Virus record (IMG/VR): IMGVR_UViG_3300029448_000352
Location: 1 to 26,711 of that record
Strand: one strand, 5' to 3'
Length of the DNA stretch: 26,711 nt
Source of the DNA: a virus
The notes beneath the pieces were generated by a model, which saw only the letters and a program-made list of their open reading frames with translations, was not told the origin of the DNA and did no database searches. Of the stretch, positions 16 to 22,274 are shown piece after piece. A program made the position numbers and the translations under genes. How positions within the stretch are numbered: position 1 is the first letter of the stretch; every line of letters starts with the position of its first letter.

Positions 16-408
16 CTATATCTTGTGGTCGATCGTATCAAAAATCTCTTTCCACGTTCCATGAACCATGCACCCCGTATCAAGCCCGACCCGACTTAAT
101 TCCCGTGCCTTTGACCCCTCAAATAAAAATAGGGTCGAGGAAGAGAGGTGCTTGACCAAGAAATAACTTTTGCCCCCATTCAATGAATGTGAGGTATGCC
201 AAGCGATTTGATGTGGAGATACATTTATTTTGTTTCCATTTGATACCTTCAATTCAATCCAGAAACAACGACCATCGCCAACAATATAAGTGTCGGGAAT
301 ACCTCCACCAGATCTGTTTTCTATTCGAGTGAAAAAGTATCCTTTATCCTTCAATCTCTGGCGAAGTAAGTTCCAAAGGTTCGTCTCTGGTTTCGGCATC
401 TTCAACAT
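16..408 (-). CDS. VRR-NUC family (PD-(D/E)XK) nuclease
   Basis: This 130-residue protein has the layout of a stand-alone VRR-NUC domain. It shows RIEN with Glu30, GIPD at 36-39, IELK at 51-54 with the Glu-x-Lys pair, and SPHQ with Gln67 before a Trp. These match the metal-binding and catalytic positions of PD-(D/E)XK nucleases. In phages such proteins are thought to act on branched or newly replicated DNA, but the substrate here is unknown. It is the third gene of a leftward trio with HNH and small terminase, which suggests a packaging or DNA-processing role. The start at 408 lies 65 bases inside the terminase gene; Met4 (399) is an alternative. It ends with TAG at 16-18, and the 15 bases beyond hold no visible start codon. 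Family call is firm, role is inference. Confidence 0.85.
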   Translation of the reverse strand: MLKMPKPETNLWNLLRQRLKDKGYFFTRIENRSGGGIPDTYIVGDGRCFWIELKVSNGNKINVSPHQIAWHTSHSLNGGKSYFLVKHLSSSTLFLFEGSKARELSRVGLDTGCMVHGTWKEIFDTIDHKI

Positions 409-895
409 CCTCTTTTACAAAAATTTGTGGGTAGTTTTTCTGCAAAGCAGATAGTCGAGCAACAATTTCATCCCTCGACATTTGATCGATTACATGGGTA
501 ACTTCTGAGGATCTTCTATCAGTAGAAAGACCTCCCAAAGCTGAACGAATTTTTTCAGCATTTATACTAGCAGAAAATTGTTTATTCTCTTGAGCATCTT
601 TTGAAAGTTCATGAAGTCTTTCAAGCTGACCCATCAACGTGACCCCATATCTTCTTTCCTTCTCCTCTCGAAGTTCAGCAACATATTCGGTGACATGAGG
701 GAAGTCTCTTCCGTTCAACAAAATGGATGCTTGTTTCTTCGCAACATTCGGAGAGTATCCAGACTTCCTAGCACATTCAGTATTGGAATAAATTCCCTCG
801 ACAATATATTTTGCAAAAGTTTTTTGGCGATCAGTCAACGTCCGATCATGGGTTTGTTCAATCGCTTGAATTTTTTTCTTCGATAGTTTTGCCAT
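344..895 (-). CDS. Terminase small subunit-like protein
   Basis: This 183-residue protein has a helix-turn-helix-like N-terminus at about residues 20-75 with LTDRQ, FAKYIVEG, ECARKSGYSP and KKQASILLN. That pattern is typical of phage small terminase subunits, which recognise the packaging site and load DNA onto the large subunit. A charged helical middle section (about 65-115) would fit oligomerisation, and the acidic tail may contact the large subunit. The start overlaps the end of the upstream HNH gene by 38 bases, and the 3' end overlaps the nuclease gene by 65 bases. The leader is purine rich (GAGAGAGCGAG) without a full Shine-Dalgarno. The large subunit is not in the window and probably lies to the left. 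A generic phage DNA-binding protein is the alternative. Confidence 0.75.
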   Translation of the reverse strand: MAKLSKKKIQAIEQTHDRTLTDRQKTFAKYIVEGIYSNTECARKSGYSPNVAKKQASILLNGRDFPHVTEYVAELREEKERRYGVTLMGQLERLHELSKDAQENKQFSASINAEKIRSALGGLSTDRRSSEVTHVIDQMSRDEIVARLSALQKNYPQIFVKEDVEDAETRDEPLELTSPEIEG

Positions 896-1218: not shown

Positions 1219-1243
1219 CCTATATAGGGGATTTTGACCCCCC
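1219..1243 (-). promoter_or_regulatory. 25-bp element, left copy, facing the packaging genes
   Basis: Read on the minus strand it is GGGGGGTCAAAAT, then CCCC, then TATATAGG, and it continues into GGAAAAACC. It matches the right copy at 22 of 25 positions with no gaps. It ends 43 bases before the HNH start at 1175. The TATAGGGAAA end resembles the initiation end of T7-type RNA polymerase promoters. An operator or a host promoter with an extended -10 are alternatives. Confidence 0.6.
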
Positions 1244-1246
1244 AAG

Positions 1247-1272
1247 TGTAAATCTGTAAACCATTTGTAAAC
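1247..1272 (-). repeat. Cluster of three TGTAAA[C/T] repeats
   Basis: TGTAAAT at 1247-1253, TGTAAAC at 1255-1261 and TGTAAAC at 1266-1272 sit directly inside the left 25-bp element. They are the reverse complement of the GTTTAC core repeated at 1318-1344, so the control region carries the same short word in both orientations. They could be binding sites for a replication initiator or repressor. Confidence 0.55.
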
Positions 1273-1317
1273 AGTAGGGCTTCTTTAGGAAGTCTTATTT
1301 TGTTGACGATTAGAAGG

Positions 1318-1344
1318 GGTGTTTACGGTGTTTACGGTGTTTAC
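1318..1344 (+). repeat. Three perfect tandem GGTGTTTAC repeats
   Basis: Three identical 9-base units lie head to tail. The last runs on into ACC to give the small palindrome GGTGT-TT-ACACC (1336-1347). The 9-base period is close to one helical turn, so the sites face the same side of the DNA. This looks like a cooperative protein-binding array (iterons or operators). It is too short for CRISPR. Confidence 0.7.
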
Positions 1345-1378
1345 ACCTCATTTCAATTATTTTTTTAAAAAAACAGTA

Positions 1379-1403
1379 GGGGGGTCAAAATTCTGTATAT
1401 AGG
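1379..1403 (+). promoter_or_regulatory. 25-bp element, right copy, facing the early genes
   Basis: Read on the plus strand it is GGGGGGTCAAAAT, then TCTG, then TATATAGG. It is the inverted partner of 1219-1243, with differences confined to the four-base block in the middle. It ends 127 bases before the first early start at 1531. If it is a promoter, the transcript would carry the hairpin at 1485-1500 in its leader. Confidence 0.6.
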
Positions 1404-1484
1404 TAAATATGTCACACAAATAAAAAAACAAACAGAAACGTGAAAATAGTTGTTCTCTAGTTGTTTTTCGTGTACTGTTTTTAT

Positions 1485-1503
1485 AGGCACTCTTGTGCCT
1501 TTT
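1485..1503 (+). terminator. Leader hairpin with T-tract (terminator-like)
   Basis: AGGCAC at 1485-1490 pairs with GTGCCT at 1495-1500 around a TCTT loop, followed by TTTAATT. It has the form of a small intrinsic terminator but sits 31 bases before the first early gene, so it could be an attenuator or a processing/stability hairpin of the early mRNA leader. Confidence 0.45.
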
Positions 1504-1530: not shown

Positions 1531-1722
1531 ATGTTCGATATACTAACAAAAACTGACAGACAAATTGACATCTACTTGACTAATTGCTCAGACGAGGAAC
1601 GAGAGCAATGGAGAAATGTTGCATGGACTATTGATGCTTGGTTCATGGATCAAGAATATTCAAAGCAAGATCACATAATCGACCTTGACGAAAACAAGGT
1701 ATATTTCGAAGGAGCGATATAA
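1531..1722 (+). CDS. Hypothetical early protein, 63 residues
   Basis: This is the first gene of the early rightward block. It has a near-perfect Shine-Dalgarno (AAGGAGG at 1516-1522, eight bases before ATG), so strong expression is likely. The product is small, acidic and rich in Trp, Asp and Glu, with no signal peptide or membrane segment. The family is not recognised. Its TAA shares a base with the ATG of the next gene, so translation is probably coupled. First genes of phage early operons often encode host-takeover or anti-defence proteins, but nothing in this sequence proves that here. Confidence 0.75.
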   Translation: MFDILTKTDRQIDIYLTNCSDEEREQWRNVAWTIDAWFMDQEYSKQDHIIDLDENKVYFEGAI

Positions 1723-8041: not shown

Positions 8042-8233
8042 ATGCCTAATGTCGGTATTAAAAACAAAGACAGAGCCGAACTTCCGTTTGTAAATATTGC
8101 CGTTCCGGTAGAAGATAGGGAAAAGCTTAGAGCAATTGCCCAAGAAGAGGGTAGAACGATGGCTAGGCAAGTTTCTAGAATGATTCGAGAGGATCACGAA
8201 AGAAGGTTTGGAAATGGACAAGGAAAAGAATGA
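8042..8233 (+). CDS. Ribbon-helix-helix (Arc-like) DNA-binding protein, 63 residues
   Basis: ATG 8042 has a strong GAAGGAG at 8029-8035. The strand ELPFVNIAVPV (residues 14-24) followed by helices EDREKLRAIAQEEG and TMARQVSRMIREDHERRF matches the ribbon-helix-helix fold of Arc/MetJ-type repressors, where the strand pairs in a dimer and enters the major groove. It has its own leader with ATGTTA repeats (7989-8027) that may be its operator, unlike the coupled genes before it. It could control the nearby SNF2 gene or the early block; this is inference. Confidence 0.8.
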   Translation: MPNVGIKNKDRAELPFVNIAVPVEDREKLRAIAQEEGRTMARQVSRMIREDHERRFGNGQGKE

Positions 8234-8402
8234 AGAAATGAAAGACGATGTCGTTAATAGATTGATGAGAGGAATGCTCTCCCCAGGCGAAGCTAAAATC
8301 TTGTTGACCCGTTACGGGGCAAGTGAGAAAGAAGCTGATTTCTGGATTAGCGACATTGTCGATGGAAAGCTAGTTAAGATTAGATCGATAGGCGGTCTTT
8401 AA
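8214..8402 (+). CDS. Hypothetical protein, 62 residues
   Basis: I choose ATG 8214, seven bases after AGAAGG (8201-8206), within the end of the regulator gene (20-base overlap). The TTG at 8208 would sit only one base after that Shine-Dalgarno. The protein has a charged start and then MLSPGEAKILLTRYGASEKEADFWI, which looks like a small helix-turn-helix-like bundle. No family was recognised. It is the last plus-strand gene before the reversed helicase: its TAA (8400-8402) and the helicase TAA (8401-8399) share the palindrome TTAA. Confidence 0.65.
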   Translation: MDKEKNEEMKDDVVNRLMRGMLSPGEAKILLTRYGASEKEADFWISDIVDGKLVKIRSIGGL

Positions 8403-9880
8403 CTTTTCTTAGGCTTTATCTGAAGCCATTCTTTGGCTTCTTCCCCAAGAACCTTTGCACTAAGGTTTATCTTGTTAACAAGAGAACTCACTATTTTTTC
8501 GTCAATTGTGCCTTCGGAGATTAAATCGATGTAGGTTACAGACTTGTTCTGCCCGATACGATGACACCGATCTTCTGATTGGATTCGTGTATCGAGGTTA
8601 AAGTCATTAGCGTAGTAAACTACTGTGCTTGCCTCCGTAAGAGTCAATCCCCGACCCGCAGTTGCGGGGTTACCAATGAAAAATTTTAGTTTAGAGGACG
8701 GATTCTGAAAATTATCAATAATTTTACTTCTTTCGTCGTCTGAGGTGTCCCCGTAGTATCGTGCTGCCGACTCTTTCCCGAAATTATCTGCAAGAACTTG
8801 ATGGATCTTCATGATGTCATACCGAAAGCGTGACCAGATAATAACTTTCCCCGAACTTTCGTAACAAATGTCCAGAAGGGCATCCATTCGCTTGGTATCA
8901 AAGTTTTCTTGGTAGCCATCGTCCGTGGTCAGATAACCCGAAAGAATTTGTTGAAGTCTCAGCATCTGCGTGACCATCTGAGGAGCCGAAACAATCTTCC
9001 CGTCCTCGAATAAAACTAAAGCCTCTTTCCGAATCTGCTCATATAATTCAAGTTGTCTTTTAGTCATGCCCACATAACGGGGCATATATACTTTATCTGG
9101 AAGATCCAAACAATCTTTCTTGAGCACCCGAAAACTGAAGGTGTCAAGTTTTTTATTTAGTTCATCTAAGTTTTTAAACCCGACTACTTGTCTAAAACTT
9201 GTAGATCCCATGTTCCTAGTTTGCAGGTGAGCGTATCGAGATTGAAAAGCGTAATAATTACTGTACCCAAGCACACCTTTTTTTAAAAATTCTGTCTGAG
9301 AGTACACATCCATCGGAGAATTAGTCACGGGCGACCCCGTAAGTATCCTAGAGTATAAAAAATCCGTTGAAGTTTGTACCAGGGTCTTTGTTCTGTTCGA
9401 TTTGTAGTTCTTAATAGCCGTAGATTCGTCAATGGCGATGATTCCACGCCTTCCGTAGCGTTTACCAAGCCATTTTCCAATGTTCTTGCCTTTTAACGAT
9501 GAAAATATTTCTACATTCATAACAAAAATCGTAACCCCATCAAATTTGTCTTGAACGGACTTTATTTCCCGTTCTTGTTCTTTGTTTGCGTTACTTACCC
9601 ACCGAATCACCCTATAAGGCACCTCATCGGGGAAGTGCTGCGGGATCTCTCGTTCAATCCAATTACGATACACTCCCTTGGGGGCAATGATCAAGGCAAA
9701 ATCAATTTCTCCTTGCTCATAAAGATAAACGATATTATCTATTAAAACTTTAGATTTGCCTGTCCCCATTTCCATAAATAATGCAAAATGTTTTTTATTG
9801 TGGCAGGCGTTTAAAGCTGCTATCTGGTGCTTAAATGGTTTTGTTTTAAATTTTTGTTTGACAAGTGATTTGTTTTCCAT
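8399..9880 (-). CDS. SNF2-like superfamily 2 DNA helicase/translocase
   Basis: This 493-residue ATPase has both RecA-like halves. The first holds a Q-like KHQIAAL, Walker A MGTGKS (38-43), DEST at 151-154 (motif II), and LTGSPV at 180-185 (motif III). The second holds VIIWSRFRYD (IV), GNPATAGRGLTLTEAS (V) and SEDRCHRIGQ at 435-444 (VI). SNF2-type enzymes move along duplex DNA; phage members may help in replication fork restart or recombination, as T4 UvsW does. It is the only minus-strand gene between 1531 and 16513. It has a promoter, TTGACA-17-TATTAC (9915-9887), but no Shine-Dalgarno: the predicted transcript begins at the ATG. Family is sure; role is inference. Confidence 0.93.
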   Translation of the reverse strand: MENKSLVKQKFKTKPFKHQIAALNACHNKKHFALFMEMGTGKSKVLIDNIVYLYEQGEIDFALIIAPKGVYRNWIEREIPQHFPDEVPYRVIRWVSNANKEQEREIKSVQDKFDGVTIFVMNVEIFSSLKGKNIGKWLGKRYGRRGIIAIDESTAIKNYKSNRTKTLVQTSTDFLYSRILTGSPVTNSPMDVYSQTEFLKKGVLGYSNYYAFQSRYAHLQTRNMGSTSFRQVVGFKNLDELNKKLDTFSFRVLKKDCLDLPDKVYMPRYVGMTKRQLELYEQIRKEALVLFEDGKIVSAPQMVTQMLRLQQILSGYLTTDDGYQENFDTKRMDALLDICYESSGKVIIWSRFRYDIMKIHQVLADNFGKESAARYYGDTSDDERSKIIDNFQNPSSKLKFFIGNPATAGRGLTLTEASTVVYYANDFNLDTRIQSEDRCHRIGQNKSVTYIDLISEGTIDEKIVSSLVNKINLSAKVLGEEAKEWLQIKPKKS

Positions 9881-10499: not shown

Positions 10500-11279
10500 A
10501 TGGCTAAAGAAATCATTACAAAAGAAGATCAACTTCCGGCAGATTTGTTGGATGAAATTACGGCATCAGCAGGCGAAGGAACTAGTTTTGACAGTTCCGA
10601 GATGCAGATCCCGTTTATTCGGATTATACAAGCTTTGTCTCCACAGATTAAAAAGAAAGACCCTGGTTTCATCGAAGGAGCAGACCAAGGGGATGCTTTT
10701 AATACTGTGACTAATGAGCATTGGAGTGGCGAAGAAGGACTTGTCGTTATTCCTTGCTATCAAGAGACTAAGTTTCTTGAGTTTGTTCCGAGGGATTCTG
10801 GGGGTGGATTTATGGGAGAGCTTGAACCTAGCAATCCCGATCTTCAGAATACCGAAAGAAAAGGTGCTAGAGAGATCTTACCAAACGGAAACGAATTGGT
10901 GAAGTCTGATCAGCATTATTGTTTAATACTTGGTGATGGTGGTATGTTTCAACCCGCGATTGTGGATATGAAATCGTCTCAGCTTAAAGTGAGCAGACGT
11001 TGGAAGACCCAGATTGCGATGCAGAAGATCCGTCATCCTAAAACAGATGCACTACTAACTCCTGCCGTTTTTGCTACGATGTGGAAACTTACTACCACTG
11101 AGGAAAGCAATGACCAAGGAACGTGGTACAATTGGTCAGTGACCAAGCATGGCTTAGTTAACACGAGAGATACTCTTACAGAAGCTAAACTCTTTAGGGA
11201 ACAAGTCATGAAGGGTGCTGTTAAGGCTGTAGAGGAAACGGAACCTCTTCAAAAGAATGAAGACGAAGTTCCATTTTAA
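10500..11279 (+). CDS. Putative single-stranded-DNA-binding protein, 259 residues
   Basis: ATG 10500 lies seven bases after AGAGGAA and two bases after the previous stop. Residues about 30-210 are strand rich (IPFIRIIQALSPQIKK, GLVVIPCYQETKFLEFVP, HYCLILGDGGMFQPAIVDMK), as expected for an OB-type domain. The protein ends in an acidic tail KNEDEVPF. Bacterial SSB ends DDDIPF, the tip that docks repair and replication partners, so this is a striking match. Position ahead of primase, helicase and polymerase supports a role in coating ssDNA. I see no direct family signature, so SSB is a good inference rather than a proof. Confidence 0.65.
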   Translation: MAKEIITKEDQLPADLLDEITASAGEGTSFDSSEMQIPFIRIIQALSPQIKKKDPGFIEGADQGDAFNTVTNEHWSGEEGLVVIPCYQETKFLEFVPRDSGGGFMGELEPSNPDLQNTERKGAREILPNGNELVKSDQHYCLILGDGGMFQPAIVDMKSSQLKVSRRWKTQIAMQKIRHPKTDALLTPAVFATMWKLTTTEESNDQGTWYNWSVTKHGLVNTRDTLTEAKLFREQVMKGAVKAVEETEPLQKNEDEVPF

Positions 11280-11363: not shown

Positions 11364-12890
11364 ATGTCAGATATAAACAAATTTATGCAGGCTTTTCGTG
11401 GCTCGGATGAGGCACACGGACAAACGACAGTTGGTGCAGTAGGTCGGAACGGAAAGACCGAGGCACAGAGTCGAGTGGTTCGTGAGCCGTTGACCGAGGA
11501 ACTAATACAGAACCACCTCGAAGGAAAGCACGGAGTCGGGGCGATCCCGATTAATAAGAGTAATGAATGTTACTTTGGGGCGGTTGATATTGATCAGTAT
11601 GACCTTGACCATAAAGCATTAATAAAGAAGATAATTAAATTTAAGCTGCCACTTGTTGTTTGTCGGTCAAAGTCTGGTGGTGCTCACTTGTTTTGTTTCT
11701 TGAAAGAACCGACACAAGCAAAGATTTTTAGAGAATATTTAACGGAGATTGCGGGTGCTTTAGGATATGCCAGAGCCGAGATATTTCCGAAACAAGATAG
11801 TATACTCTCCGAAAGAGGGGATGTAGGTAACTTTATTAACTTACCTTACTTTAAAGCAAAGCAAACCATGAGATATGCCTTTGACGATAAAGGTAATGCT
11901 ATGAAACTAGATCAGTTCTTGGCGATGGTCGAGAAGAAGAAGACATTTGTTGCAGATTTAGAGAAGGTAAAGTACGGGGAAAGCCGTGAGGTTTTTGCCG
12001 ACGGGCCACCTTGTTTGCAAAATTATGTGTCAAGTGGAAAAGTTGACAATAATAGAAATATTTTTCTTTCGCAGTGTGCTCCATATTGCAAGGGCAAGTT
12101 CTCGGATTCTTGGAAGAATTCATTGGAAGAGATAAACCAGAGACATTGTGCTCCCCCTCTTCCCGCGAGTGAGTTGGTTACACTGCAGAACCAATACCAG
12201 AAGAAGGATTATTATTACCAATGCAACATCGAACCGAATGCCTCTTTCTGTAACAAAGAATTATGTAAGACTCGAAAGTTCGGAATTGGTACGAAATCGG
12301 ATCATGCTGCCGACTTGAGTGGACTAACGATTATGTTATCTGACCCGAAGTTGGTGTTTCTGGATGTGAATGGTGGACGATTGGAAATAACAATGGATCA
12401 CCTACAGAATCAGCATTTGTTTCAGAAGGCTTGTATGGAGCAACTCATGATGATGCCCTCTAAGATGAAAGAAACCGATTGGGTGACCAAAGTAAATGAA
12501 ATGTTGAAACACGCAGTTCAGTTAGAAGTTCCGAAAGAACTTACAGTAGATGGTCAGTTTTTTGATCTGCTAGAAACATTTTGCACAAGCCGTATTCGAG
12601 CACAATCCTCAGAAGAATTGTTTATGGGTAAGCCGTGGACAGAGGACGGAAGAACGATGTTCATGATTAATGGTCTGATGGAGTTTCTTCAGCAGAGAAA
12701 CTTTACTTCTTTTACTAGGGCACAGATACAAGAGCGTTTAAAGAAATTGAACAATGGGGGAGAGTGCAACGGACATAAGAGTGTTAGAAAACCCGATGGA
12801 GCAAGAACCACGTTACGAGTTTGGTGGGTTCCCGCGTTTGATGGTGTAGAGGAAGTTACAGAGGTGCCCGAAGATGAAATACCGTTCTGA
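11364..12890 (+). CDS. Archaeo-eukaryotic-type DNA primase (AEP/TOTE-like), 508 residues
   Basis: The N-terminal half is an AEP primase domain like that of TOTE-system primases. FGAVDID at 71-77 gives the metal-binding Asp75/Asp77, SKSGGAHLFCF at 102-112 has the catalytic His108, EIFPKQ is at 139-144 and NFINLPYF at 156-163. It should make RNA or DNA primers for the polymerase encoded downstream. A second part has CAPYCKG and later YYYQCN, ASFCN and ELCKTRKFGIG, a probable metal-binding cluster as in primase C-terminal domains. It ends EDEIPF, like an SSB tip; those last codons also carry the start of the next gene. The ATG at 11364 has no clear Shine-Dalgarno but a stem-loop before it. Confidence 0.87.
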   Translation: MSDINKFMQAFRGSDEAHGQTTVGAVGRNGKTEAQSRVVREPLTEELIQNHLEGKHGVGAIPINKSNECYFGAVDIDQYDLDHKALIKKIIKFKLPLVVCRSKSGGAHLFCFLKEPTQAKIFREYLTEIAGALGYARAEIFPKQDSILSERGDVGNFINLPYFKAKQTMRYAFDDKGNAMKLDQFLAMVEKKKTFVADLEKVKYGESREVFADGPPCLQNYVSSGKVDNNRNIFLSQCAPYCKGKFSDSWKNSLEEINQRHCAPPLPASELVTLQNQYQKKDYYYQCNIEPNASFCNKELCKTRKFGIGTKSDHAADLSGLTIMLSDPKLVFLDVNGGRLEITMDHLQNQHLFQKACMEQLMMMPSKMKETDWVTKVNEMLKHAVQLEVPKELTVDGQFFDLLETFCTSRIRAQSSEELFMGKPWTEDGRTMFMINGLMEFLQQRNFTSFTRAQIQERLKKLNNGGECNGHKSVRKPDGARTTLRVWWVPAFDGVEEVTEVPEDEIPF

Positions 12891-16593: not shown

Positions 16594-16705
16594 TCGCTTG
16601 TTCACCTTGACAGCAATCATCGACCACTGAACCACAGACAGAGCATTGGTCGTGACCATGCACATTGATGCGATTACTTTCTTGCTGACATTTAGGGCAA
16701 ATCAC
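16514..16705 (-). CDS. Small zinc-ribbon protein, 63 residues, GTG start
   Basis: The start codon is GTG (16705-16703), overlapping the TGA of the upstream virion gene (16704-16702), so it is probably translated by coupling at the end of the late operon. MICPKC (Cys3, Cys6) and QCSVCG (Cys21, Cys24) form a classic two-knuckle zinc ribbon, followed by VVDDCCQGE. The last 27 or so residues (GQPYSEQPTPDPSP end) are rich in Pro and read antisense to the polymerase C-terminus. Zinc ribbons of this size in phages are often of unknown role, perhaps binding nucleic acid or protein. No intrinsic terminator is seen between the two converging genes. Confidence 0.75.
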   Translation of the reverse strand: MICPKCQQESNRINVHGHDQCSVCGSVVDDCCQGEQAINQPRPNCSLDPGQPYSEQPTPDPSP

Positions 16706-19700
16706 CTATACAAACCTCTACTTGCCATAGCTTGTGCGAGTGCCTGTGATTGAGGATCTGGATTTACAATAGGATTCGTTGGATCAATTCTTGGTGTGCC
16801 TGTACCAACAGTTGGTTGTACATTTGGCACAGGTGTTCTGTTAAGTGATCCATCAAAAGGAAATGTTAAGGGATTAACTCTAGGAACAGATTGTTGAATA
16901 CTTCTCTGTGTTTCTGGAGATGTTTTTAGATAACCCTCTTCTGCTGACATACCTTCCAGATTTGCTTTTTGCACTGCTGTGTTTATATCTCTAAGAGCCG
17001 TGGCTACTGTATCCTCTCCGGGTTTCCTTGATGCAGTAATCATTTTTAGAACACTAGGCATCCTTAAAGCATGAGACATCGTTGTATAAAACAGTAACGC
17101 ACCACCCGTTGTAATAGGGTCCATTGCGAAGCTAAATGCAGTAAGAGACAGAGCAATCGTTGCGGGAGCCAATCCACCTTTACCTGCCATCGGTTGTTGA
17201 GATGCTCTCTTCATTATGTCTGCCATTTGAAACAAATAATCAGATCTTTCTTTTCCGAACATAGCAGTGATTGTGTCTTTTCCGTAATCGTCTGCTAAAA
17301 CCTTTTGAAGTTTATTTCCTAATCTTCCAGACAAAAAATTATCTGCAAAAGTTTGTTCGTTCACATCCCCTAAAGATCGAAGGATTCTTGCCATAGCTGC
17401 GTTTTCCACGGATTCTTTCAACTCTGCGTGTTTCGGGAGTTGAAAAGATTCATCCCCAAACTTCATGTTATTTTCCATAAAATCGTTAATTAAACGAGCA
17501 TTACCTTTGGCAAACAGTTTATCCATTACGACATCACCGTTTCCAGTGTTGAATGCCTCCATAAGAGAGTCTTTGTCTACTGCTTTTTTATTTAGAACGG
17601 CTGCCTTTACACCTCTTATGGCTTCCACCAGAGGTCTGTCAGCAAATTGTTCAAACACCTCACGGTTCATTTCTGCACCCGTAGATCTAAAAATTTTCAT
17701 TAAATCTTCAACGGCTTCTAATTCCCCTTTACCCCTAAAGAGAACCTTTTTAGTTTCTCCTAAATTATCTATCATTCCTGCAATTTTTCTTCCATCAAGA
17801 AATTCTACGCCATCTTTTAAATTCATAACTTTCTGTGTCGTGAGTACACGATTTATAAACTCTGCTGCAAGTTGCTTTCTCATTGATTCTCCTGCAGTTC
17901 CAGAAGATATTTTAAAAGCTTGTCTTGAAGCCAGATCTTTTTCTGCTTCTTGTATACCTTGTCGAACAGAAGTGGCGTTTACTCCTTTTGCTTCAAGCTC
18001 TTTTACTTTAGCTTTAGCTTGTGGTATCGTTAAATCCTGCTCTGCATATCTAACTGTTGGGGCTTCTGGCTCAACTGCTCGAATAGGTCGTATTCCTTTT
18101 ATAGCCCTTAAAAATTTTGTTAAGGACTCTGGGTCGTTTGGTTTCACCACATCATCTAAAATTTTACTAACACTAACTGTTTGATCAGGGCTTCTATTTA
18201 CATTTTTAACAAAACTTTGAATATGAGGAGCTTTAAATCTGTTAAGTCCTTTAGAATAGTATGCTCGTGCTTCTTGATACATTCTAAGACCTTTTTGAAG
18301 TTCCAGTTGTTGTTGAGTAACAGTTCTTGGACCTATGTCCGTAGGAGACAACATATCTTGCTGTCTTGCCCCTACCCGAAATATTTTGTCACTAAGAAGA
18401 CCTTCAGCATCTATAAATGCTTGATTAACTGTTTTACTTAGATCATCTAAACTATGATCCCCAACGGTAGATATAAACGAAGGGTTAAAGGAAAGGTCAC
18501 TAACAGCAACTCTAATTTTTAAAGCATCAGCAGTTGTTATAAACATTCTCTTCTCTATAAGCTGTTGTAACTCTTTGCCTTTGGCATTTGGGTTTAATCT
18601 CTTCACCTCTGCTTCTGCTCTTCTGTACGCTGATGTCAATATTCTTCCCACGGGTTTTTTTGGATTTAACAACTTAGATATCTCGTCTGTTTGCTCATTA
18701 ACTTTCATTTTGTAAAGAAATCTATTTACATCTCCAATTGGTATAATCTTATTTCCTTCTCCCAACATTTTGTCAGCTTCTAAAAACAACCCATCAGCCT
18801 GCCTGTGAAAACTTTCTTTTGCAGAGTTTAACGCTTTTATGAGATCCACGCTTAGATCTCTACCTTGCTTCAAAGGAGCCATAATTTTTACTAACTCCTC
18901 CTCTATTTCTTTTCCTAAAACTCTTTGTGCTGCGGCAAGTTTTTCTGCCGGAGTTCCGTATATCTTTTCAATGTCTTTTTTTATAGATCCCATGAGCGAG
19001 GTAAGTCCCGCATCGTCTTTTGCTCCAAGATCTATCAGATCTTTTTTTAAAGCGTTCAAGTTCTGAATAGCTGCTCCCTTGTTTGGAATGACACCTTCAT
19101 AAATTGCTTGAGCACGACCTAAAATTGAAAAAGCACCAGGAGCTGCACCTTCAATGGTTGGTCTATATCCTTTCGCCAACATTTCTCTTCCAAGAACCTT
19201 ACCTTGTTCGGCAGCTTCTCCTCCACTGCCTTTGAGAAAACGACCCAACACTCTTGAAACGCCTCTACCAAGACCTTCTCCAAGAAAACCCATTGCACCT
19301 TCCCAAGCAACGTCGGCTGCCAATTGTCCTTTATCCTGTCTTTGATACCCATTAACATACTCTAATGTTTCATCTATTGCTTTACCTAGAGCCATCGATC
19401 CACCAACAAACGCCATTGCAGGTAACGTAGCCATGCCTGCTGTTAAAACACCTGCTGTTATACCGAAGGTTAACGGTATTCCTACTTCTCCCCCAAAATC
19501 CACTAGGTCATACTTACTAAATCCTTCTTCGTCGATAGCCACTTCTGGGCCTTCCCCCATATCTAGTTTCTTTCGACCCTCTTTTGTAATTATAAATCTA
19601 CCACCTTTGTCTTGACGAAAACCTTTCTCGCCAACAACGTCCTTAAGGTAAGCTGCCTTCTCTGAGTCAAGTTCTTTGTTCGAGAACCCTGCTCTAACAG

Positions 19701-19992
19701 ACAAGTTCCTTAATCCAGAGGTATAGTCTACATCTGGATCTTTCAAAGGCTCTTCTTTAGGTGCTCCCTCTTTAGGTACTCCTCCAACTCCTTGAGACTC
19801 TAAAGCAAATTTTCTTCGGTAGTAATTAGATATATCTTCTTGTTGGGGAGGAGGCACACTAGAAGAAGGAGCTTGTGGAGAAATTTTACTGATATTTTCT
19901 AGTATTATCTTTTGTTCTTCTTCCGTGGGAGTGTCGCCCGCAATATTGACTAAAGCAGGTCCTGTAGGAGTGTTTATTTGAATCTGACCCAC
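16702..19992 (-). CDS. Large virion protein, candidate internal/ejection protein, 1096 residues
   Basis: The start is GTG 19992-19990, sharing one base with the TAG of the upstream gene, after GAGGGACAGG. The N-terminus (MGQIQINTPTGPALVNIAGD, then TPTEEEQ) is followed by a Pro-rich linker (41-51) and two hydrophobic Gly/Ala stretches at about 167-204 and 941-971 that could enter a membrane. Long charged helices fill the middle. Such size, composition and place after the other virion genes match internal or ejection proteins of short-tailed phages, which form a conduit through the cell envelope. No enzymatic domain such as a lysozyme was found. Naming rests on context. Confidence 0.7.
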   Translation of the reverse strand: MGQIQINTPTGPALVNIAGDTPTEEEQKIILENISKISPQAPSSSVPPPQQEDISNYYRRKFALESQGVGGVPKEGAPKEEPLKDPDVDYTSGLRNLSVRAGFSNKELDSEKAAYLKDVVGEKGFRQDKGGRFIITKEGRKKLDMGEGPEVAIDEEGFSKYDLVDFGGEVGIPLTFGITAGVLTAGMATLPAMAFVGGSMALGKAIDETLEYVNGYQRQDKGQLAADVAWEGAMGFLGEGLGRGVSRVLGRFLKGSGGEAAEQGKVLGREMLAKGYRPTIEGAAPGAFSILGRAQAIYEGVIPNKGAAIQNLNALKKDLIDLGAKDDAGLTSLMGSIKKDIEKIYGTPAEKLAAAQRVLGKEIEEELVKIMAPLKQGRDLSVDLIKALNSAKESFHRQADGLFLEADKMLGEGNKIIPIGDVNRFLYKMKVNEQTDEISKLLNPKKPVGRILTSAYRRAEAEVKRLNPNAKGKELQQLIEKRMFITTADALKIRVAVSDLSFNPSFISTVGDHSLDDLSKTVNQAFIDAEGLLSDKIFRVGARQQDMLSPTDIGPRTVTQQQLELQKGLRMYQEARAYYSKGLNRFKAPHIQSFVKNVNRSPDQTVSVSKILDDVVKPNDPESLTKFLRAIKGIRPIRAVEPEAPTVRYAEQDLTIPQAKAKVKELEAKGVNATSVRQGIQEAEKDLASRQAFKISSGTAGESMRKQLAAEFINRVLTTQKVMNLKDGVEFLDGRKIAGMIDNLGETKKVLFRGKGELEAVEDLMKIFRSTGAEMNREVFEQFADRPLVEAIRGVKAAVLNKKAVDKDSLMEAFNTGNGDVVMDKLFAKGNARLINDFMENNMKFGDESFQLPKHAELKESVENAAMARILRSLGDVNEQTFADNFLSGRLGNKLQKVLADDYGKDTITAMFGKERSDYLFQMADIMKRASQQPMAGKGGLAPATIALSLTAFSFAMDPITTGGALLFYTTMSHALRMPSVLKMITASRKPGEDTVATALRDINTAVQKANLEGMSAEEGYLKTSPETQRSIQQSVPRVNPLTFPFDGSLNRTPVPNVQPTVGTGTPRIDPTNPIVNPDPQSQALAQAMASRGLYR

Positions 19993-22274
19993 TAACCTGT
20001 CCCTCGCATTCGAAGACCTGGTACACCGTCCATGTCTACAATATCAAAGACGGGCAGTTGACCTTTTTTACCTGCCTCTAGATCAAAAACAGATCTTCTT
20101 GGTATGTCTGTTTTGATAAATCCTAGTCCCGTGGATCTTGATCCTTTTACTCTGTCAATATCAGAAAGCGTGGAATATATGCCGTCTGCTTCTATTAAGG
20201 ATTTAGTTTGAGAAGCTAAAAGAGTCTTCATGGCAGCATCTATCCTTTGTTCTGCGGCAGCCTTGGTAACCAAGTTAATTTTAAACTTCCCTGTTTGTTT
20301 ATCTTCCTCAATTAAACCCCCAAAGAAAGGTCTTATAATCTGTAGTAGAACATCTCTGTCTGATATAGAGTTGGCTGATTGTGTGCTTCCAAGAGCCACC
20401 CTTGTGATCTCAGGTAGTGCTTGAAGCATTCTAGCTTCTATCTGTTCTACAGAATTAAACTCTTCACCAATCGTAACCCCAAAGAAAGTAGCACCCTTTG
20501 CAAATTGTTGTCCTGCGAATCCTTTAAAACCTCTAGAGAAGTCGCCCGTGGAAGGATCGTTTAACATTCTCTTAACGCCATCAAACATTCCCATTGCTCT
20601 AGCAGAGTCTTCAGCAATACCCATTGCTTTGTTGTATTCTTTCGCCATAGTTCTAACGTCACCAAGGAGAGCAGGATCAACCCCTCCCCCCGACATTTCG
20701 TTCACAAGTTCGGCTTGTTTTATCTGCAGTTCTATTGTTTTTAATTGAAAAGCTTTTCTTTCGTTAATAGCTGTGATAGAGGCAAGGTTGTTCATTTTGT
20801 CTCCATGTTTAAGTCTTTCAGCCATGCTCATTCGAATCATTGTTCCTTCTTCATGTTTTGTTCCGTTTGGATCAGTGTATCCACCTTTTCCAACAACATA
20901 AGTCTCAAAGTTTCTAGCATCGGCTCTTCCTTGTGCTCTTTGCTTGCTCACCTCGCCCAAACCGTACTGAAGTGCGGATAATTGAACCTGACGATTAAAT
21001 TCATCCCTTTTGGCGTTGTCCTCAATAAACATATCTGCTCCTTGTTCTAGAGCTTTTGCTATGTTGGTTAGGGCATTCGGACTTTCTCCCGCTGCCATTG
21101 CAAAACCTATCTTCGCTATAGCTAATCCTTTGTCCATACCCTTATATTCTGGAGCATTGTCCGTAAATTCTTTTACTAATTGTTTTAAAGCACCGCCCGT
21201 GCCTACACCAGACTTAACAGTATCCGTAACCAGTGTTTTAACATCTGCCATTGACGCTTTTCCGTTTAAGAAGTCTTCTGATGCCTTTTTGTGCTTGGCT
21301 GCTGTTCCTTGGTCTGCCGTAACACCAAGAGTTTGAGGGCGAAACTGACCATCTGTACCTTTTAGTTCATTGACTAGTGCCGTTTTGTCTGCGGTTACTT
21401 CCTTTAACCGTCCTCCACCTTCTTCAAAACGCTTGTCTTCTTCTGCCCTAAATTGTCGTTGTAATGCTTTTTCTAATGCTTCTTCTAATAAAGCCTCATC
21501 CGTGGGCGGTGCATCTGGATCTTGCATACCACCTTCTATAGCTCTCTTTCTTTCTTTTTCCATAAATATACCTGGATCAGTCAGTGGAAGTTTTTTCGCA
21601 AGAGCCTTCTTTTCTTCTGTAGGCAATTTAGAGTTAGCTATAAATTTTAACGCCAGACCGGGGTTGTTCTTTATGTCGTTAGGCAAAGGTTTTTCACCAC
21701 TTGCATACTCACGAATTGTTTTATCTGTAGGTTGATCCCTATCTGGAATAAATTGAAAATTTTTATCAAACAATATATCAACAACTCCTGCTCCAAGAGC
21801 AAGCACACCATCTCCCATAATGTCGTCGAACACATCCCCAAATCTGTCATACCCAGAAGTGCTTCCAGTTGTAAGAAAAGTTTTAAGAGCAGGGTTATTG
21901 TCTAGTATCTTGCCAGATCTAGTAAACACTCCACTTTCTGCGTCTTCCATTGGATCTATGTTTAATTTTTTTAAGGTGCTATCTCTAATATACTCTATGG
22001 GTCTGAGTCCCCCTGTGGTAGGGTTAACGGGGTTAAAGTTGCCGAATTTTCCTGCTTTAAGATCTTCAAGAAACATGGGCCCCGAATACCCTTTTTGGAA
22101 TATAGATGTCGGTCGAATACGACCCCCCATCGCACCAGGGGAATTAACTCCCCCACCATACTTGAACCTAGCCACCTCTTGGATCAATGGTGCAGAAGAA
22201 GCCATGATGCCACCCATCTGACGCACCTTGTCCCGTGCATCCCGTTTAAACATCTTTCTATTGGTTACGCTCAT
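19992..22274 (-). CDS. Virion-associated protein, candidate internal protein, 760 residues
   Basis: ATG 22274 overlaps the TGA of the upstream gene by four bases. The N-terminus MSVTNRKMFKRDARDKVRQM followed by GGIMASSAPLIQEVARFKYGGG resembles uncharacterised structural proteins of marine podoviruses. The protein is mostly charged helix with a Lys/Glu-rich region at about 200-330 and an Ala/Gly-rich part near 380-410. No transmembrane segment or catalytic motif is evident. It is flanked by other low-complexity virion genes in an overlapping string, so a capsid-internal or ejection role is the best inference. Confidence 0.65.
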   Translation of the reverse strand: MSVTNRKMFKRDARDKVRQMGGIMASSAPLIQEVARFKYGGGVNSPGAMGGRIRPTSIFQKGYSGPMFLEDLKAGKFGNFNPVNPTTGGLRPIEYIRDSTLKKLNIDPMEDAESGVFTRSGKILDNNPALKTFLTTGSTSGYDRFGDVFDDIMGDGVLALGAGVVDILFDKNFQFIPDRDQPTDKTIREYASGEKPLPNDIKNNPGLALKFIANSKLPTEEKKALAKKLPLTDPGIFMEKERKRAIEGGMQDPDAPPTDEALLEEALEKALQRQFRAEEDKRFEEGGGRLKEVTADKTALVNELKGTDGQFRPQTLGVTADQGTAAKHKKASEDFLNGKASMADVKTLVTDTVKSGVGTGGALKQLVKEFTDNAPEYKGMDKGLAIAKIGFAMAAGESPNALTNIAKALEQGADMFIEDNAKRDEFNRQVQLSALQYGLGEVSKQRAQGRADARNFETYVVGKGGYTDPNGTKHEEGTMIRMSMAERLKHGDKMNNLASITAINERKAFQLKTIELQIKQAELVNEMSGGGVDPALLGDVRTMAKEYNKAMGIAEDSARAMGMFDGVKRMLNDPSTGDFSRGFKGFAGQQFAKGATFFGVTIGEEFNSVEQIEARMLQALPEITRVALGSTQSANSISDRDVLLQIIRPFFGGLIEEDKQTGKFKINLVTKAAAEQRIDAAMKTLLASQTKSLIEADGIYSTLSDIDRVKGSRSTGLGFIKTDIPRRSVFDLEAGKKGQLPVFDIVDMDGVPGLRMRGTG

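Follow-up and report, generated by a model that had tools for sequence, protein, structure and literature searches.

Mirrored arms and iterons of variable core in the divergent intergenic region upstream of TerS in marine phages

The region between TerS and the early genes

The DNA analysed here (the window, record G000) is a viral fragment of 26,711 bases. Its leftward unit contains the gene for the terminase small subunit, TerS (344..895, minus strand; phrog_51, E 2.8e-14), which flanks the region of interest, and, as second gene, an ORF for a VRR-type nuclease (16..408, minus strand; phrog_2165 and others) that lies beside TerS in most relatives. In the window phage, an ORF for an HNH endonuclease (858-1175) is found between TerS and this region; the ORF is missing from the close relatives L002 and L086 and is probably a recent homing-type insertion. 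On the other side, the first rightward (early) ORF of the ORF list spans positions 1531..1722 (plus strand). The rightward early/replication region encodes a ribbon-helix-helix (RHH) protein, a SNF2 helicase, proteins resembling Pam3 gp33 and gp34, a TOTE-type AEP primase, a UvrD helicase, a DUF6378 protein and PolA, in an order common to about 20 related contigs. Complete distant relatives, recognized by their polymerase, are HTVC023P, 023Pt_psg01, HTVC027P and DSL-LC04.

Several features of the neighbouring genes were recorded along the way. The SNF2-type helicase gene (8399-9880) lies on the opposite strand within the early region, at the same place and in the same orientation in about 20 relatives. 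Acidic tails like that of SSB terminate the gp34-like protein (10500-11279; DEVPF), which may be the phage SSB, and the AEP primase (11364-12890; DEIPF), whose tail is kept in nearly all relatives. The large ejection-type proteins (16702-22274 in the window; also G001, G031 and G056-G058) show 25-45% identity where other genes show 80-99%, and are apparently swapped or fast-evolving modules.

The intergenic region is bordered by two 25-bp elements, or arms. The left arm, GGGGGGTCAAAATCCCCTATATAGG (1219..1243, minus strand), points toward the TerS side, and the right arm, GGGGGGTCAAAATTCTGTATATAGG (1379..1403, plus strand), points toward the early genes. The left arm reads GGGGGGTCAAAAT-CCCC-TATATAGG on the minus strand and the right arm GGGGGGTCAAAAT-TCTG-TATATAGG on the plus strand. 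The mirrored copies described in the initial annotation are thus real: they are identical at 22 of 25 positions and differ at three, each of them within the 4-base block (CCCC/TCTG). An inverted-repeat search stretches the pair to 35 nt at 83% identity (1215-1249 and 1373-1407). The left arm also includes a perfect 12-bp palindrome, CCCTATATAGGG. A 24-nt core pattern, allowing at most 3 mismatches, matches twice in the 26.7-kb record, at the two arms, against a chance expectation of 0 (100 dinucleotide shuffles); since the record is a fragment, a search of the "whole genome" for copies covers this fragment only. The initial annotation had proposed a search for further copies: the record has none elsewhere, and the 50.4-kb relative G001 has the same pair once, at the homologous place.

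Between the arms, 123 bp are occupied by 9-bp iterons that had escaped the initial annotation and that are the more remarkable part of the region. They form two opposed sets of 9-bp units of the form GT-NNN-(C/A/G)A. The left set (1248..1273, plus strand) consists of GTAAATC (1248-1254), GTAAACC (1256-1262) and GTAAACA (1267-1273), two of these copies being degenerate. In the middle set (1320..1344, minus strand), TGTTTAC occurs three times with a 9-bp period (at 1320, 1329 and 1338), so that the minus strand reads GTAAACA. A degenerate iteron, GTAAATA (1403..1409, plus strand), stands immediately behind the right arm, where relatives have a right-hand iteron. The A/T-rich tract TTTCAATTATTTTTTTAAAAAAA (1351..1373) separates the middle iterons from the right arm, and an A/T tract is found here in most relatives. 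The left arm is 28 bp from the left iterons, and the right arm lies 57 bp from the point where the last middle iteron starts.

Arms and iterons in related phages

The arms border the divergent intergenic region in every relative examined. The pair is found at the same place in L002 and L086; L086 has GGTGGG in both arms where the window has GGGGGG in both, so that its two arms carry the same G-to-T change. In L147, a run of 10-12 G residues precedes TATATA in both arms. More distant relatives carry mirrored CTATATAG or CTATAG elements at the arm positions, at nearly fixed distances. Conservation in related genomes, on which the initial annotation had made the significance of the pair depend, is therefore seen both as the pair itself (L002, L086) and as positional equivalents farther away.

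Distances were analysed in 81 non-redundant regions. Left arm and left iterons are most often 27-29 bp apart (34 of the 48 regions with a left arm), and the right arm is most often 57-60 bp from where the last middle iteron starts (40 of the 67 regions with a right arm); a simple pattern search found no left arm in 33 of the 81 regions and no right arm in 14. When the arms are read outward in the 35 non-redundant relatives that have the two at canonical spacing, left and right agree at 11.1 of 20 positions within a phage and at 9.7 between phages (permutation p=0.0005; 7.0 when shuffled). Equivalents at nearly fixed spacing, together with the likeness of the arms within a phage, indicate that the mirror pair is a general feature. 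By this comparison, the G-run arm is the window-clade version of the general pair, and the G-run arms of L147 are independent.

For the iterons, two TerS scans, the first of them with a profile, yielded the regions upstream of TerS at 121 loci. Iterons were called from at least three identical 7-mers GTNNN(A/C/G)A that included a tandem pair at 8-12 bp. Tandem iterons were present in 109 of the 121 regions and in none of 1,045 random control windows from the same contigs; the loci are redundant metagenomic fragments, and related sequences should not be counted as independent events. The copies stand in tandem with a 9-bp period (spacing 9+10 in the left set, 9+9 in the middle set), as in a protein-bound iteron array. 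Across the iteron regions, 17 different NNN cores were seen. Agreement between the left and the middle core is 0.82 within a phage and 0.376 between phages (p=0.0002; frame test of 22 regions). The layout recurs, with cores of other sequence, in four MAG contigs that come from an independent collection.

The changes affect all copies in concert. In L002 and L086, all three middle iterons are GTAATCA, versus GTAAACA in the window, and copies 2 and 3 of the left set are also GTAATCA, the first being degenerate (GTAATTC/GTAATTT). That copies on both sides have changed together is expected if one factor reads each set, and some of these statements of co-variation rest on few clades. Switching is also seen over very short distances. 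In L198, L199, L207, L211 and L324-L328, TerS proteins are 98-100% identical and the intergenic sequences nearly so except for the iteron cores; at least six cores (AAA, TCT, CAA, CCT, ACT and a CCT/CAT hybrid) occur within this clade of at least 98% TerS identity. The hybrid is that of L325 (upstream of TerS, position 702), in which the left set is GTCCTCA and the middle set GTCATCA; it is possibly an intermediate in core switching. Altogether, as judged from these alignments, the 3-bp core is the same in all iteron copies of most phages and differs even between near-identical phages.

The left and middle sets share their cores, yet not the bases that separate the copies, nor the register (9+10 versus 9+9). 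Differing spacers and register argue against conversion by slippage or template switching and for recognition of the core. They likewise bear on the idea that a DNA or RNA hairpin or cruciform is the functional element, its copies agreeing through pairing or through template-switch homogenisation. As single-stranded DNA, the window stretch does fold far better than its shuffles (z -5.1). However, neither full pairing nor conversion explains agreeing cores within set-specific spacers and unequal registers, and L325 has CCT on the left versus CAT in the middle. A pure hairpin was rejected, as register and spacers lend selected pairing no support, and structure-based agreement in general appears very improbable.

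Two variants of the pattern were noted. In L331-L333, L335 and L337, a clade with 84% TerS identity, the same layout is built from a variant 9-bp frame, TGACTCAAA, indicating that even the GT frame can shift. L001 was set aside: it matches the 24-nt pattern, but GGGGTCAAAATTGCC repeats there in another context. Three such repeats lie at 559-620 beside a winged-helix-like ORF, one copy matching the 24-nt pattern, in what seems to be a further control or origin region built on repeats.

Search for a protein that reads the core

A concerted change of many DNA sites normally needs a matching change in a protein. The determinant of the core was not found among TerS, the RHH protein, SNF2, gp33, gp34, the primase, UvrD, PolA, an AlpA-like protein and the ejection proteins, and the obvious candidates are unchanged. 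TerS, SNF2, gp33 and gp34 were rejected because they change little or not at all between phages whose cores differ. Primase, UvrD and PolA are 95-100% identical between phages with different cores (primase: 95-97% when compared in full, 100% over the part common to L207 and L211). The RHH protein (8042..8233, plus strand), a candidate DNA-binder with a PF07878 match below cut-off, is kept in 7 of 7 relatives tested; its beta strand is identical in the window (core AAA) and in L002/L086 (AAT), and the whole protein is identical in L207 and L211 as well as in L151 and L177. Ejection proteins are hypervariable, but they were dismissed: G001 and G031, which have the same core, are no more alike (40%) than the window and G001 (43%). 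A screen for gene presence associated with the core was dominated by phylogeny.

The AlpA-like protein deserves separate mention. Its gene, of about 70 codons, sits between primase and UvrD in G035, G037, G041, G046, G056 and others, and, leaving aside the window clade and the HTVC-type phages, all 8 relatives that were tested gave a Phage_AlpA match better than the cut-off. In the sequence examined of the window clade the gene was not found, and primase and UvrD overlap there. This winged helix-turn-helix (wHTH) protein was attractive for a BldC-like binding to 9-bp sites, and its recognition helix seemed to covary with the core when the first 13 genomes were compared. The lead was later refuted: the protein is identical in L266 (TCT), G046 (AAA) and G056 (ACT) and so cannot set the core. 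It may bind the invariant iteron frame. The AlpA antitermination protein of P. aeruginosa (PMC7969949, PMC9371919) has the same name but is apparently a different protein.

Constancy of TerS has a further implication. If the region were a packaging site (cos/pac), TerS would recognise the palindrome and the iterons for DNA cutting, a role suggested by the position of the cassette directly upstream of TerS and by the HNH endonuclease ORF inserted there in the window. Yet TerS is 100% identical in L207 and L211, whose cores are TCT and AAA, which argues against recognition of the core; moreover, in L088 and L090 the same layout adjoins the VRR nuclease gene, and TerS was not found next to it. 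An unchanged TerS in phages of unlike core speaks against a packaging site at which TerS reads the core, and packaging functions at large seem very improbable.

Promoter, operator and origin readings

CTATAG and TATAGG ends resemble promoters of single-subunit RNA polymerases, and T7-like phage promoters have a TATAG-type end. The initial annotation had taken such a hint from the arms, which do form an outward pair, and a T7-type polymerase was accordingly looked for outside the window. No PF00940 (single-subunit RNA polymerase) match was obtained in 16 related records, part of them fragments, that included 50-kb contigs and four complete phages of 57-61 kb; the positive control, T7 (NC_001604), scored 1e-109. 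Furthermore, the elements do not make up a genome-wide promoter family: there are only two copies per contig, two in the window and two in G001, all in the arm region. In this and in their palindromic core, the arms are unlike T7-like promoters. We regard a T7-type function as extremely unlikely, and the hint has been abandoned.

Sigma-70 signals give a different picture. A consensus scan for outward -10/-35 pairs (16-18 bp spacing) finds none at the arms; its matches there are weak, inward and at background frequency (5 versus 3.0 expected). The arms present TATA-type, -10-like cores without a -35 match, and CTATATAG cores are palindromic, so that outward polarity rests on the flanking element. 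In several relatives a sigma-70 promoter of the type TTGACA-N16/17-TATTCT closely follows the right arm, and in some of them it is immediately preceded by iterons. A tentative early -10 in the window, TATAGG (1482..1487, plus strand), was placed by alignment with L002 and L086, which have TATAAT/TATTAT about there; it is weak and is not called by the consensus scan. A terminator-like hairpin with a T-rich tail (1485-1500) lies between this -10 and the first early ORF, and L002 has a different hairpin in this interval.

The cassette is defined by its sequence, its homologous position, its near-fixed spacing and the co-variation of its copies. From this arrangement we infer promoter identity and transcription, protein binding and timing. 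We propose, at about even confidence, that the arms are the outward outer edges, providing -10-type promoter cores, of a divergent TerS/early control cassette in which the iterons would be regulator sites. The earlier suggestion, that paired promoters or operators set the two directions of transcription, agrees with position, outward polarity, conservation and near-fixed geometry, promoter function being kept as a prediction. Each arm would most likely supply a -10-type core (TATATA/TATAGT) and an upstream recognition element. Lacking a consensus -35, the arms would need a DNA-bound factor, which would be a protein that occupies the inner 9-bp iterons head-to-tail. On the left, with TATATA as the -10, the first iteron would lie about 20 bp upstream, over the -35, in the position of a class II activator; on the right, the middle set would lie about 52 bp upstream of the core, with an iteron usually directly behind the core. 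A separate sigma-70 promoter just rightward would drive the early genes. Occupancy of the iterons would thereby time or balance leftward TerS/nuclease versus rightward early transcription.

Plasmid and SaPI/P4-type iteron origins have short repeats that flank an A/T-rich tract, the repeat sequences being replicon-specific. The cassette is like them in its short repeats flanking an A/T-rich tract, and tract and iterons would suit a replication origin equally well. In such an origin an initiator would bind the iterons, the A/T tract would unwind, and the arms would be borders or primer promoters. Two opposed sets of short iterons adjoining a conserved A/T tract, a phage replication set downstream (AEP primase, UvrD helicase, PolA, SSB-tailed gp34) and the fact that iteron-specific incompatibility would account for core diversification all speak for this. 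Against it, and unlike those origins, the cassette adjoins TerS, 9-11 kb away from the primase; no initiator gene was found, and the primase changes little from phages of one core to those of another. An origin is thus rather unlikely, but origin and promoter functions would be compatible and could coexist.

Returning to the control cassette, likenesses exist with two described systems. Stoperators of Cluster A mycobacteriophages are 13-bp sites scattered over the genomes of temperate phages and bound by a known repressor; their consensus differs between related phages and tracks the specificity of the DNA-binding protein, with immunity grouping as the proposed consequence (PMC6550527). The cassette resembles this operator/stoperator system in having many short asymmetric sites per phage and a consensus varying between relatives (PMC6550527). 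It differs in that its sites are 7-9 bp, in tandem and confined to one intergenic region, and that no repressor was found. MerR-like regulators of the BldC family are small wHTH proteins that bind head-to-tail to 9-bp direct repeats, and the cassette has the same 9-bp period and tandem direct repeats of variable number (PMC5859096). Unlike BldC, the relatives' candidate, the AlpA-like wHTH, is missing from the window clade and identical across cores. A description of the cassette was not found in the literature on iterons, hypervariable phage operators or this phage group, which is weak evidence of novelty.

The region is probably a control region common to a large group of marine phages, with the arms as its promoter-like edges. 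We tentatively suggest, with somewhat less than even confidence, that these lytic marine phages use a fast-switching recognition code: the 6-9 iterons of a control or replication cassette would change their 3-bp core together on an otherwise unchanged backbone, implying an equally fast-changing factor, perhaps host-encoded or from the late region, and sorting near-identical phages into compatibility or exclusion groups. Once known, the partner protein would reveal the way in which an entire regulatory or replication system is re-tuned in a phage, and would make it directly testable whether iteron identity decides the winner between near-identical phages in a co-infected cell. The iteron core is also a ready marker for grouping this widespread marine phage lineage.
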